A stretch of 20,020 bases of DNA from a virus. Made by a program: the position numbers and the translations under genes. A model generated the notes under the pieces. It was not told the DNA's origin. It did no database searches and was given only the letters and a program-made list of their open reading frames with translations. This document shows positions 5,279-20,020 of the stretch, piece after piece (positions within the stretch are counted from its first letter, which is position 1; the number at the start of each line of letters is the position of its first letter). The stretch covers positions 1 to 20,020 of the IMG/VR virus record IMGVR_UViG_3300010157_002225. One strand, written 5' to 3'.

Positions 5279-5571
5279 ACGTTACCGACAAGATAATAGA
5301 TAACTTGGCCAAACAAATGGCAGATCAAATTGATCAAGAAGTTATAGAAAACATTACCATGGAAATTTTAATCAAGGATGGTTGGACGCAAACTAATATC
5401 AATCCTGCATTTCCAGAATATGGAATGATGAGTAAGCCATTTGAAGATTGGTATAGTAAAACATCAGAATGGATAAACACATACGCTCAGGGTGAATACA
5501 AGTTGATAAAAGGTCAATGGTTGTTCAACGACCCAAGAGATGCTACAATGTTCATTTTGCGTTGGTCATGA
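5275..5571 (+). CDS. LRWS-array small protein (member 4)
   Basis: 98 residues from the ATG at 5275, which forms ATGA with the stop of the previous gene and has GAGG just upstream; the ATG at 5269 is less likely. The N-terminal third is helical and acidic (NLAKQMADQIDQEVIENI). It is followed by FEDWYSKTSEWINTYAQG and the tail WLFNDPRDATMFILRWS. The C-terminal two-thirds aligns by eye with the other array members, so the N-terminal helix is an added part. Function unknown. Confidence 0.7.
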   Translation: MNVTDKIIDNLAKQMADQIDQEVIENITMEILIKDGWTQTNINPAFPEYGMMSKPFEDWYSKTSEWINTYAQGEYKLIKGQWLFNDPRDATMFILRWS

Positions 5572-5780
5572 AAGTTACTATACCTTATGATCCGGACCGG
5601 AAACCTTTAGAATGGGCTAAGAAACATTGCTCAAGTTATATCACTAATGAGCGTCATCCATATCGTAATGATGTTGAGTCAAATGGAATAATTAAACGTA
5701 TTGTTATGATCAATTACTTTTTCAGTGACGAGAAAGATGCGTTAATGTTCTTGCTAAGGTGGTCGGATGAGCAAGTTTGA
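5568..5780 (+). CDS. LRWS-array small protein (member 5)
   Basis: 70 residues from the ATG at 5568, again in an ATGA overlap with the previous stop. The frame extends upstream to 5517, but that would overlap the previous gene by more than 50 bases. Sequence pattern: PLEWAKKHCSSYI, then MINYFFSDEKDALMFLLRWS, then a four-residue extension DEQV. The AAGGTGG encoding LRW serves as ribosome site for the gene at 5767. It is the shortest member and so best outlines the minimal shared domain. Function unknown. Confidence 0.7.
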   Translation: MKVTIPYDPDRKPLEWAKKHCSSYITNERHPYRNDVESNGIIKRIVMINYFFSDEKDALMFLLRWSDEQV

Positions 5781-6144
5781 AATCAACGGGTTATTCTACT
5801 ATAGCCATGGCCAGTTTTTGCCTTGCGGTCTTAACCTTAAAGATAAAATTTGGTGGAGATTCATGCCCGGCGTTATAATCAATGTAGCATGGCCCAAAGG
5901 CAAAGTCCGAGTTGGCCCCAGTCATAGGGATGGATGGAGCGGATATGGCCCGGAATTTGAATATGTTGAAAGTGCAGATCCCAACGACTTTTATCGTCCT
6001 TGGTTAGAAGAACATGTGGGCAAACAAGGGTGGGATTGGAACTGGGGTATGGCTAATACAGATGCAACAGAAAATCGTCTAACTATTAAAATTAGAAAAA
6101 AGCATGCCAGGTATGCTACAATGGCAGTATTGATGTGGAGTTAA
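5767..6144 (+). CDS. LRWS-array small protein (member 6)
   Basis: 125 residues, overlapping the previous gene by 14 bases and preceded by AAGGTGG. It is Trp/Gly/Pro rich in the middle (KIWWRFMPGVIIN, HRDGWSGYGPEFEYVES, WDWNWGMANTD). It ends KKHARYATMAVLMWS, the weakest match to the shared tail. TGG AGT at the end gives GGAG before the ATG at 6146. No catalytic motif is seen. Confidence 0.7.
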   Translation: MSKFEINGLFYYSHGQFLPCGLNLKDKIWWRFMPGVIINVAWPKGKVRVGPSHRDGWSGYGPEFEYVESADPNDFYRPWLEEHVGKQGWDWNWGMANTDATENRLTIKIRKKHARYATMAVLMWS

Positions 6145-7324: not shown

Positions 7325-7861
7325 ATGAGTTTAAAAGAACTAACCGCTGAAAAACATCAACTGGCGGAGTCTACTCAATTTATGAAGGCAGTGTTTGCAA
7401 AAACCCTGCCTTTTGATTTGTGGGTAGATTTCACATTCCAAAAACAACTTTGGTATAAAGAAATTGAACATGCTGCTCGTAAAGCAGGTTTGTTAAATGG
7501 GCTACCTGGTATTGCTAGGGCACATTTGATCATGGATGATTATCAAAATATGCAAAAACCATTGGGCAGTTTTAATACCTATAAAGAAGAAACTAAGGAT
7601 TATGCCATGTATATTAGATCACTAGATGATCCAAAACGTATTATGGCACATTTGTATACTTGGCATATGGGTGATCTATTTGGTGGACAAATGATTAAGA
7701 AAATTGTAGATGCTCCTCATACCCATTTAGATTTTGAAAATCCACATGATTTAAAGATAGCTATTCGTACTATGTTATCAGACGATATGGGACAAGAAGC
7801 TAATGTAGCATTTGATTGGGCAATTAAAATAATGTATTCATATGACAGCAGTTTGGGATAG
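7325..7861 (+). CDS. ho1: Heme oxygenase
   Basis: 178 residues with heme-oxygenase hallmarks: the N-terminal ELTAEKHQLAESTQFM with the proximal heme ligand H11, and the distal helix HLYTWHMGDLFGGQMI (109-124) with the GDLxGGQ motif. It would open heme to biliverdin IX-alpha, CO and iron, using reduced ferredoxin or a similar donor. It is slightly shorter than bacterial HO1 (about 200-240) because of a short C-terminus. AAGGA lies before the ATG, 7 nt after clpS. Its end overlaps the bilin reductase by 20 bases, so the two are translated together; biliverdin would pass directly to the next enzyme. Confidence 0.93.
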   Translation: MSLKELTAEKHQLAESTQFMKAVFAKTLPFDLWVDFTFQKQLWYKEIEHAARKAGLLNGLPGIARAHLIMDDYQNMQKPLGSFNTYKEETKDYAMYIRSLDDPKRIMAHLYTWHMGDLFGGQMIKKIVDAPHTHLDFENPHDLKIAIRTMLSDDMGQEANVAFDWAIKIMYSYDSSLG

Positions 7862-18589: not shown

Positions 18590-18618
18590 TTGACAGAGAT
18601 AAATAAATCATATACAAT
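18590..18618 (+). promoter_or_regulatory. Sigma70 promoter TTGACA-17-TACAAT with GATAAATA in the spacer
   Basis: TTGACA 18590-18595 and TACAAT 18613-18618, spacer 17. A late-type GATAAATA (18598-18605) lies between the two boxes. First of three tandem promoters before the tRNA region. Confidence 0.6.
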
Positions 18619-18673
18619 TAGTGCTTGAGTTGTTAGAAAGTTGCTATTTTTGATTCAGAATTAAAAACAGTGG

Positions 18674-18702
18674 TTGACAACAATGATAAATAACTGTATA
18701 AT
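18674..18702 (+). promoter_or_regulatory. Sigma70 promoter TTGACA-17-TATAAT with GATAAATA in the spacer
   Basis: Perfect consensus: TTGACA 18674-18679, TATAAT 18697-18702. GATAAATA at 18685-18692 again lies inside the spacer. Both this promoter and the next are preceded by AGTGG or similar (CAGTGGTTGACAAC, TAGTGGTTGACAAC), a shared 5' flank. Confidence 0.85.
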
Positions 18703-18770
18703 AAAGACTAGTTAGCAAGTACAGTCAGCAAAGAAGTTAGAAGAAATTTTAAAATAATTGCAGATAGTGG

Positions 18771-18799
18771 TTGACAACTAGTCAGAAGTATAGTATAAT
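18771..18799 (+). promoter_or_regulatory. Sigma70 promoter TTGACA-17-TATAAT before structured RNA
   Basis: Perfect consensus: TTGACA 18771-18776, TATAAT 18794-18799. Predicted +1 (about 18805-18806) coincides with the first base of an 8-bp hairpin. Confidence 0.88.
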
Positions 18800-18804
18800 T
18801 GATA

Positions 18805-19068
18805 CATACGCTGCAATAAGGTAGCGTATGTAAATTTTTAAATTGAAGATAAAACAGAAAATGCAAACAGCATCATATTTTAGATCAGTTAGTTTTATAG
18901 CCAAACAGGCGGGCTCAATGTCCACCTCTTGCTGGTTAGCGATTAATAGTCTAGGGAATGATCGCACACCGGAGCATTATAGTAGGGTCCTGGAGGACAT
19001 TGTGTAACACAAATTACACACAAACTTCAAGGACCCTAGGACTAACACTCCTGGGGTTTTTTGTTTTT
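18805..19068 (+). ncRNA. Candidate structured RNA of about 260 nt, terminator-ended
   Basis: Promoter at 18771, terminator at 19034, no credible gene between. Stems seen: CATACGCT/AGCGTATG (18805-18812/18823-18830) at the 5' end; CAATGTCC/GGACATTG (18916-18923/18995-19002) closing a domain; GCGAT/ATCGC (18939-18943/18961-18965) inside it. Further stems are TAGGGTCCT/AGGACCCTA (18983-18991/19030-19038) and TGTGTAA/TTACACA (19001-19007/19014-19020). Some of these exclude each other. It could be a stand-alone RNA or an attenuated leader of the tRNA transcript. It is not recognised as 6S, tmRNA, RNase P RNA or a riboswitch known to me. Confidence 0.6.
19034..19068 (+). terminator. Intrinsic terminator, possibly regulated
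   Basis: CCCTAGGA (19034-19041), 7-nt loop, TCCTGGGG (19049-19056), then TTTTTTGTTTTT. Its 5' arm can instead pair with TAGGGTCCT at 18983-18991, or with CTAGGG at 18951-18956, so an antiterminated state is possible. Confidence 0.85.
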
Positions 19069-19074
19069 AGCGTT

Positions 19075-19287
19075 GGTATAGTGTGAAGAACAGGTAACGA
19101 GGACCTGGCCCTGCACTTTAAACATGGGGCAAACGGGCGGTGACGAGGATGGCTTACCCTTATGTGGGTAAAAAAATTCGTCATATTAAAGCAAACTGGC
19201 GCACGGCTTGACTCTGAATCAAGTGACGAAGCATAGCTAGACAGTTTGTTTTAATATACACATTGGAAACAGTGTGTTTAATAATAT
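19075..19287 (+). ncRNA. Second structured RNA segment upstream of tRNA-Tyr
   Basis: No ORF. Stems: CAGGT/ACCTG with a 7-nt loop (near 19092-19108); TGACGA/TCGTCA (19141-19146/19178-19183) around TTACCC/GGGTAA (19154-19159/19166-19171). A 16-bp stem with one G-U, ATATTAAAGCAAACTG/CAGTTTGTTTTAATAT (19183-19198/19242-19257), encloses the arm CTTGA-CTCTGAA-TCAAG (19207-19223). ACACATTG-GAAA-CAGTGTGT (19258-19277) follows directly. The 3' end would be freed when RNase P cuts before tRNA-Tyr at 19288. A second TGACGA copy (19224-19229) could compete for TCGTCA. Class unknown. Confidence 0.5.
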
Positions 19288-19373
19288 GGATGTGTAGGAA
19301 AACTGGTAACCCCAGAAGACTGTAAATCTTCCGCCTCGCGGCACTGTTGGTTCGACTCCAACCGCATCCACCA
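19288..19373 (+). tRNA. tRNA-Tyr (anticodon GTA)
   Basis: Acceptor GGATGTG/CGCATCC (one G-U), anticodon arm GAAGA-CTGTAAA-TCTTC, long variable arm as in class II tRNAs, T-arm TTGG-TTCGACT-CCAA, discriminator A, and encoded CCA. 86 nt. Confidence 0.95.
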
Positions 19374-19375
19374 TA

Positions 19376-19425
19376 TTTGAAGATGACACAGTTCCCTGCA
19401 CTACAATGTCAAGCAGGACTTCAAA
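19376..19425 (+). repeat. Nested hairpin between tRNA-Tyr and tRNA-Ala
   Basis: TTTGAAG/CTTCAAA (19376-19382/19419-19425) encloses CCTGC/GCAGG (19395-19399/19413-19417). The rest of the spacer to 19565 holds no gene; it has an isolated TATAAT (19493-19498) without a good -35 and a short CTAGGG..CCC dyad. Confidence 0.5.
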
Positions 19426-19565
19426 GAGTTCTATGTTGGTCTAGCTTGCTAGGGCACTTAGGCACCCGCCAGTCAGCAAATATCACGTAGAGTATAATCG
19501 TGAGGCGTTGACACACCGTACTCGTTCGATGGACCATATAACGTAAAACTAGGCCCACATATTTC

Positions 19566-19641
19566 GGGGGATTAGCTCATTTGGGAGAGCGGCTGCTTTG
19601 CAAGCAGTAGGTGATCAGTTCGATCCTGATATCCTCCACCA
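19566..19641 (+). tRNA. tRNA-Ala (anticodon TGC)
   Basis: Acceptor GGGGGAT/ATCCTCC (one G-U), D-arm AGCTCATTTGGGAGAGC, anticodon arm GCTGC-TTTGCAA-GCAGT, T-arm ATCAG-TTCGATC-CTGAT, encoded ACCA. 76 nt, canonical. Confidence 0.95.
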
Positions 19642-19647
19642 CAATTT

Positions 19648-19722
19648 GGGGGCAGCAGAGGGCTGCGGCGTTCCCTTGCAAGGATCGTGTCTAGTGGGGT
19701 TCGATACCCCCGGCCTCCACCA
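19648..19722 (+). tRNA. Divergent tRNA-like element, apparent anticodon TGC
   Basis: 75 nt ending in CCA, with GGGGTTCGATACCCC as T-arm and acceptor GGGGGCA/GGCCTCC (A7 x G66 mismatch). The anticodon arm GTTCC-CTTGCAA-GGATC has a T x T mismatch. The D region is about 4 nt short: GCAG/CTGC with an AGGG loop and none of the usual conserved GG placement. The variable region is 8 nt. It may be an Ala(TGC)-like pseudo-tRNA, a tRNA of altered identity or a tRNA mimic. Confidence 0.55.
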
Positions 19723-19727
19723 AGTTA

Positions 19728-19801
19728 GCTCTGTTAGTATAATGGTATTACACCTGTTTTGTAATCAGGTTACGGCAGTTCGATTCTGTCACGGAGCACC
19801 A
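19728..19801 (+). tRNA. tRNA-Thr (anticodon TGT)
   Basis: Acceptor GCTCTGT/ACGGAGC (one G-U), anticodon arm CCTGT-TTTGTAA-TCAGG with a T31 x T39 mismatch at the loop, T-arm GGCAG-TTCGATT-CTGTC, encoded ACCA. 74 nt. Confidence 0.92.
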
Positions 19802-19808
19802 AGTTTTT

Positions 19809-19884
19809 GCAGCGTTAACTCAGTTGGTAGAGTGTCGGCCTGTCTAGTCGAATGTCAGGGGTTCGAGTCCCCTACGCTGCGCCA
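19809..19884 (+). tRNA. tRNA-Asp (anticodon GTC)
   Basis: Acceptor GCAGCGT/ACGCTGC perfect, anticodon arm TCGGC-CTGTCTA-GTCGA, T-arm AGGGG-TTCGAGT-CCCCT, discriminator G (the usual Asp identity base), encoded CCA. Position 37 is T instead of a purine, which is unusual. Confidence 0.9.
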
Positions 19885-19889
19885 AGTTT

Positions 19890-19947
19890 AGGATAGCAAC
19901 AGCAAACAATCCAAATTTCACTTATTCTGAAAAAAAGATGCTATCCT
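19890..19947 (+). repeat. 9-bp inverted repeat between tRNA-Asp and tRNA-Glu
   Basis: AGGATAGCA/TGCTATCCT (19890-19898/19939-19947) around a 40-nt A-rich loop, followed by GTTTTATT. It could be a weak terminator, a processing hairpin or the acceptor stem of a decayed tRNA. Confidence 0.5.
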
Positions 19948-19957
19948 GTTTTATTAT

Positions 19958-20020
19958 ACTCCGGTCGTCTAGTGGCTAGGACGCCAGCCTTTCAAGTTGG
20001 AGAAGCGGGATCGAAACCCG
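19958..20020 (+). tRNA. tRNA-Glu (anticodon TTC), cut by the window end
   Basis: Starts ACTCCGG, then TC and a Glu-type D-arm GTCTAGTGGCTAGGAC. Anticodon arm CCAGC-CTTTCAA-GTTGG. The T-loop reads ATCGAAA where TTCGAAA is expected (base 54 A instead of T). The 3' acceptor half lies outside. Confidence 0.88.

Follow-up and report, generated by a model that had tools for sequence, protein, structure and literature searches.

The trp, his, leu and ilv type attenuators of proteobacteria control biosynthesis genes through leader peptides dominated by a single amino acid or a few, while T-box leaders bind uncharged tRNA directly. The phage leader described here resembles the former group in its promoter, its short leader ORF, its mutually exclusive antiterminator and terminator, and the placement of a stop codon that would let a terminating ribosome mask the antiterminator arm; with T-box leaders it has in common a proposed, tRNA-linked control of read-through. 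It has long been asked what phages need tRNA arrays for and under which conditions they use them. Judging from the abstracts of two reports, phage tRNAs are documented as an answer to tRNA-cleaving defences (PMC10264068; PMC11555353), and a heading in the latter refers to a strong promoter used by a phage to overexpress tRNA-Tyr (PMC11555353).

We analysed a 20-kb virus fragment from IMG/VR (20,020 nucleotides, termed the window). The leader near its end is, in our judgement very probably, a case of ribosome-mediated transcription attenuation, where a leader peptide comprising all 20 amino acids would turn on a phage tRNA array when any aminoacyl-tRNA becomes limiting. The window contains the following features:

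18590..18618, + strand: upstream sigma70-like promoter, 11/12 consensus matches
18674..18702, + strand: upstream perfect sigma70 promoter, 12/12
18771..18799, + strand: proximal perfect sigma70 promoter of the leader RNA, TTGACA-17-TATAAT, 12/12
18803..18832, + strand: 5' hairpin at the presumed transcript start, missing from leaderless homologues
18861..19007, + strand: ORF1, putative leader peptide MQTASYFRSVSFIAKQAGSMSTSCWLAINSLGNDRTPEHYSRVLEDIV, 48 aa, all 20 amino acids
18911..18923, + strand: GGGC/GTCC hairpin in ORF1, from reading homologue copies, pairs not formally counted
18939..18965, + strand: GCGAT/ATCGC hairpin in ORF1, GCGA-like partner in 72/126 copies
18983..18991, + strand: antiterminator 5' arm TAGGGTCCT, inside ORF1
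18993..19028, + strand: inner antiterminator helices, two, one holding the ORF1 stop codon
19005..19007, + strand: ORF1 stop codon TAA, 14 nt past the GGGTCC core
19029..19061, + strand: intrinsic terminator, a hairpin of 13 pairs with a T tract behind it
19030..19038, + strand: antiterminator 3' arm AGGACCCTA, common to the terminator 5' arm
19080..19183, + strand: element B, pseudoknotted RNA between attenuator and tRNAs, covariance model (CM) match 19067-19215
19288..20020, + strand: tRNA array (Tyr, Ala, Thr, Asp and a partial tRNA), running beyond the window end, proposed regulated target

Relatives of the leader occur in uncultured large phages, and its helices covary across more than 120 copies. 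A first close relative was retrieved with a peptide of the internal ORF and others with a downstream 16-mer, and a search with the terminator sequence yielded more than 120 contigs among the matches listed. Cultured phages yielded no blastn relative of either the leader or element B, and the terminator pattern had no match in bacterial genomes. A match of a looser pattern to a Schlesneria MAG among the bacterial genomes, without ORF and without tRNA, was discarded as a chance hit. Exactly one copy is present per contig in 16/16 contigs of 117-364 kb. Same-strand tRNAs (median 13) lie downstream in 77/77 copies for which 3 kb or more of the following sequence are available, and the 3 kb upstream are free of tRNAs in 66 of 79 copies. 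The longest arrays seen comprise up to 37 tRNAs with 14-21 isotype labels, one label standing for an unidentified type.

The leader is preceded by a tandem trio of strong sigma70-like promoters (18590-18799; 11, 12 and 12 of 12 matches), and promoters with at least 10/12 matches are located upstream of 95 of 98 homologue copies, those comparable to the proximal promoter upstream of 96 of 98. In approximately 19 of 96 homologues an ATG follows the -10 hexamer at a distance of 6-11 nt, a spacing which suggests a leaderless mRNA in these copies and thereby supports the ORF1 start codon. An SD-like tetramer precedes ORF1 in only 10/98 homologues; this scarcity renders the efficiency of ORF1 initiation uncertain and counts against the attenuator reading.

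The antiterminator arms TAGGGTCCT and AGGACCCTA are exact reverse complements forming a 9-bp helix, which competes for the terminator 5' arm. Further inside, GAGG (18993-18996) pairs with CTTC (19025-19028), and a stop-codon stem, TGTGTAA/TTACACA, links 19001-19007 to 19014-19020. About 190 nt separate the 5' hairpin from the terminator. The 261-nt RNA folds at -85.8 kcal/mol, compared to -56.2 +/- 4.9 for shuffled sequences (z = -6.0). Most homologues, as read from the copies, possess a GGC...GCC type of the hairpin at 18911-18923, and no conserved protector hairpin or pairing was identified. Much of this architecture had been recognized in the first-pass annotation of the window: the perfect sigma70 promoter, the hairpin at the transcript start, the intrinsic terminator, the 9-bp pairing overlapping its 5' arm and the tRNAs downstream (the first at 19288) are all borne out, and the GCGAT/ATCGC hairpin is indeed common among the homologues. 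The additional proposal of CTAGGG (18951-18956) as a third pairing partner applies to this sequence but is not conserved, the motif being found in 3/126 homologues.

The heptamer upstream and the terminator arm fit each other in 115 distinct copies, mainly as AGGGTCC/GGACCCT (58) or GGGGTCC/GGACCCC (45). Among 53 distinct aligned homologues the covariation score amounts to 0.145 for the antiterminator (shuffled 0.089 +/- 0.008) and to 0.179 for the terminator (shuffled 0.093 +/- 0.009), and sliding the partners against each other lowers both scores. As the search patterns behind most copies prescribe part of the arm sequence, which limits the arm variation visible, two extra arm tests were performed. 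Among the copies retrieved by an upstream ORF1 motif, which does not touch the arms, both arms are present in every complete one except L176. Around position 7826 of this contig, a deletion fuses the antiterminator arm to the terminator arm and leaves a simple hairpin, which might be natural or an assembly collapse. Of the readable copies searched with the altered arm GAACCC, 12 of 15 contain the predicted partner GGGTTC upstream; of those searched with AGACCC, 5/5 contain the predicted GGGTCT. In the three GAACCC exceptions shifted or bulged helices could still pair, according to a by-eye reading of the sequences. The antiterminator is the more stable structure in 123/123 copies (mean -25.1 versus -16.7 kcal/mol), and therefore, the RNA alone should read through, and a finishing ribosome should be needed for termination. 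The RNA meets what is expected of an attenuator, namely an antiterminator and an intrinsic terminator that are mutually exclusive, share an arm and both covary.

Gaps in ORF1 were analysed in homologue pairs of 80-88% identity, which are not independent of each other, using stricter alignments, since permissive ones were uninformative. Within the ORF1 body 348/426 gaps are divisible by three, as compared to 115/570 between the stop codon and the terminator. The net ORF1 frame is retained in 356 of 393 pairs in this identity range and in 117/117 at higher identity. Indels that are not a multiple of three are common around the arm, where they are mostly compensated ahead of the stop. The constraint on the peptide is weak (pN/pS 0.68 versus 0.77 in shifted frames), and the strongly conserved residues are W, DR and PE. 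The arm heptamer occupies two reading frames (62 and 48 of 110), in which it encodes RV/GV or GS, and hence is conserved as RNA and not as peptide. ORF1 codon usage differs from that of the surrounding phage genes in avoiding GCT, CCT, ACT and GTT, a choice that is hard to interpret, as it is confounded by RNA structure. ORF1 is without a match in Pfam and PHROG, and its alignment contains no stretch conserved enough for a profile scan. A LacI-type HTH protein, assumed by eye from the motif IAKQAG...DRTPE, was rejected in the absence of a Pfam or PHROG match.

An attenuator further calls for a leader ORF that overlaps the antiterminator arm, which is the case here on comparative evidence only, translation being inferred. 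In nearly all copies the stop codon is located 14-21 nt beyond GGGTCC and 20-33 nt upstream of the terminator arm, and by this spacing the stop position would allow a finishing ribosome to mask the antiterminator.

The most peculiar property of ORF1 is its composition. All 20 amino acids are present in 98 of 123 distinct peptides, and at least 19 in 118. Random peptides of the same composition would be complete in 4.7 of 123 cases (maximum 14). A homology-preserving shuffle of residues within columns, which keeps the make-up of each alignment column, gave 17.8 +/- 3.8 complete peptides (maximum 29 in 1000) for a subset of 114, in which 93 were observed; therefore, shared ancestry does not explain the completeness. 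At less than 50% identity, 25/37 peptides are complete versus 4.1 under the column shuffle, and held-out copies comprise 20 amino acids in 9/12 and 19 in 3/12 cases. Read in its five other frames, this DNA encodes all 20 in 0-6 of 112, and among the controls this applies to 2.8% of 47-aa windows of long phage proteins and to 2/78 members of the neighbouring small gene ORF2. Rare residues are under-dispersed, e.g., Cys, with a mean of 1.04 per peptide and a variance/mean of 0.10, is nevertheless spread over 29 columns.

The complete set is largely assembled ahead of the arm: upon removal of the residues from the arm onward 82/106 peptides remain complete, compared to 28/106 if an equal number is taken off the N-terminus. 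Complete sets drop to 22/106 at 9 nt and to 9/106 at 15 nt before the arm, where at least 19 amino acids are still found in 83/106 and 64/106, respectively. The ORF1 of the window uses 36 distinct codons and covers all 24 decoding classes counted, as do 64/108 copies in terms of classes, and the number of distinct codons per ORF1 is 35.9, versus 34.8 +/- 0.1 after shuffling of codons between positions of a column that share the same residue. The regulatory codons also suit the product, as an attenuator requires, with all 20 amino acids on the one hand and tRNA arrays that carry, in the longest examples, 14-21 isotype labels on the other. Two observations count against this picture: around 20% of the ORF1 peptides lack one or more amino acids, and a conserved Glu codon a few codons ahead of the arm leaves little room for a stall there. 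We consider it probable that the peptide has been selected for containing every amino acid, and not for its sequence, likely with maximal codon variety, and that it represents a checklist of the whole decoding apparatus. If so, a single attenuator would respond to the loss of any one tRNA, e.g., through an anticodon nuclease, by deploying the phage tRNA array.

In the proposed mechanism, transcription would begin at a strong host-type promoter, with a ribosome translating ORF1 behind the RNA polymerase. With all aminoacyl-tRNAs available, the ribosome is predicted to arrive at the stop codon 14-21 nt past the [AG]GGGTCC arm, where it would mask this arm and melt the inner stem containing the stop codon. 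The GGACCC arm would thus be freed, the terminator would fold and the tRNA array would be off. If any one aminoacyl-tRNA were scarce, possibly because a defence nuclease cleaves host tRNAs, amino acids are depleted or the host declines, the ribosome would stall upstream in ORF1, the arm would pair with GGACCC, and the resulting antiterminator would let the polymerase proceed through ORF2, a small gene not present in all copies, and element B to the tRNAs. The presence of all 20 amino acids in ORF1 implies that any missing aminoacyl-tRNA can cause such a stall. Judged by the usual extent of a ribosome footprint, the antiterminator arm but not the terminator would be covered by a ribosome positioned at the stop codon, so that finished translation should mean termination and an earlier stall read-through. 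The helices and their covariation, the ORF1 frame, the completeness of the peptide, the order of stabilities and the position before tRNA arrays can be read from the sequences themselves; ORF1 translation, the sign of the regulation and its physiological trigger are inferred, without expression, ribosome-profiling or starvation data.

Other readings share some of these observations. ORF1 might encode a functional microprotein, e.g., a small regulator, with the helices merely setting mRNA and read-through levels without any sensing of translation. The conserved frame and the strongly conserved W, DR and PE residues would agree with this notion, which we nevertheless deem very unlikely: the peptide has no Pfam or PHROG match, its pN/pS is 0.68, and the arm heptamer is conserved in two reading frames. 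Moreover, a folded protein would not be expected to retain about one Cys, His, Phe and Tyr each at drifting positions. Completeness and frame conservation would remain equally unexplained if ORF1 were incidental and the choice between antiterminator and terminator were set by a ligand- or protein-binding RNA, either riboswitch-like or an autoregulated leader. The structured leader (fold z = -6) and the conserved hairpins within ORF1 are compatible with such an RNA; nothing scored above the Rfam gathering thresholds, and we regard this reading as even less probable.

Least credible of all is a small RNA or mRNA that stands alone and terminates constitutively, with minor read-through and tRNAs transcribed from their own promoters. 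The promoter and the terminator are strong, and promoter-like sites exist elsewhere in the window, yet the helix opposing the terminator covaries, the association with tRNA arrays is strict, and ORF2 often starts around 18 nt after the T tract. The absence of conserved coding potential, by which a stand-alone non-coding RNA would be recognized, is not given either, in view of the ORF1 frame and its frame-specific completeness. Hence, of the two possibilities raised by the first-pass annotation, the analysis supports an attenuator of read-through into the tRNAs and does not support a stand-alone phage RNA: the exclusive helices covary (53 distinct copies), the element is single-copy (16/16), and tRNAs follow in 77/77. 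The same annotation held that conserved coding would refute an attenuator. Coding is conserved, which had been missed, but the attenuator is not refuted, since ORF1 supplies the missing sensor, a peptide of 20 amino acids with a stop 14-21 nt after the antiterminator arm.

Further elements lie between the terminator and the tRNAs. Element B comprises 26 pairs, 21 of which are changed on both sides (covariation score 0.366 versus 0.169), variation extends to all 5 pairs of its pseudoknot helix, and it is present in 94/99 loci selected by the attenuator alone. Its near-invariant motifs are GGNAACGNG, CACU, GGGCGG, GAUGG and AAAA, and it appears to be an undescribed RNA, for which there is no Rfam model. 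In contig L002, as judged by eye, a GIY-YIG-like homing endonuclease ORF (5369-5989, - strand) is located within element B, part of which is duplicated at the left flank of this ORF. A long stem of the ATTAAAGC.../...GCTTTAAT type lies 3' of element B in the window (19186-19257) and its relatives, and surrounds highly variable sequences resembling anticodon arms or T-loops. Stretches at 19088-19140 and 19646-19722 are tRNA-like and uncalled by ARAGORN, the latter of the form GGGGGCA...GGTTCGATACCCCCGGCCTCCACCA.

ORF2 is an undescribed family of 50-60 aa proteins, found in the attenuator-element B gap of most copies and missing from the window. It starts about 18 nt past the terminator T tract in contigs L022, L070, L085 and others, and one member matches phrog_20536 (unknown function). 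L022, a related phage contig, also carries a permuted tmRNA gene of the betaproteobacterial type (5802-6139, - strand).

Searches of Rfam 15 at gathering and permissive thresholds returned nothing for the leader or element B; hits at permissive thresholds were sub-threshold only, the best being an sRNA outside the element (E 0.038). A Polynucleobacter-1 RNA (RF01718; 1411-1555 of the window, 100 bits) is a structured RNA on the same contig at an unrelated location and matches neither the leader nor element B. For the assignment to T-boxes an Rfam match would be needed, and there was none at the gathering score or at E up to 5; in contrast to T-box leaders, a translated ORF is proposed instead. 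In the open-access literature, which excludes most subscription journals and bioRxiv, no pan-amino-acid leader or phage-tRNA attenuator was found.

If the proposed mechanism is true, tRNA arrays of this kind are conditional and expressed once any tRNA becomes limiting, which fits a tRNA supply for counter-defence or rescue better than constant codon compensation and makes the question of the tRNA arrays directly testable. The leader could then be employed directly as a sensor of general tRNA depletion and would be, as far as found, the first attenuator to respond to the overall aminoacyl-tRNA supply rather than to a single amino acid or a few. Its presumed purpose is the same as in the reports on tRNA-cleaving defences (PMC10264068; PMC11555353), where phage tRNAs replace cleaved or limiting host tRNAs; the abstracts of these papers describe the tRNAs themselves, and no description of an attenuator was seen in either paper. 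Unlike the trp, his, leu and ilv type leaders, the phage leader comprises all 20 amino acids, precedes a viral tRNA array and has no conserved protector pairing that could be found. The element is thus proposed to work like trp/his-type attenuation, and what is new relative to it is the combination of a pan-amino-acid leader with a viral tRNA target.
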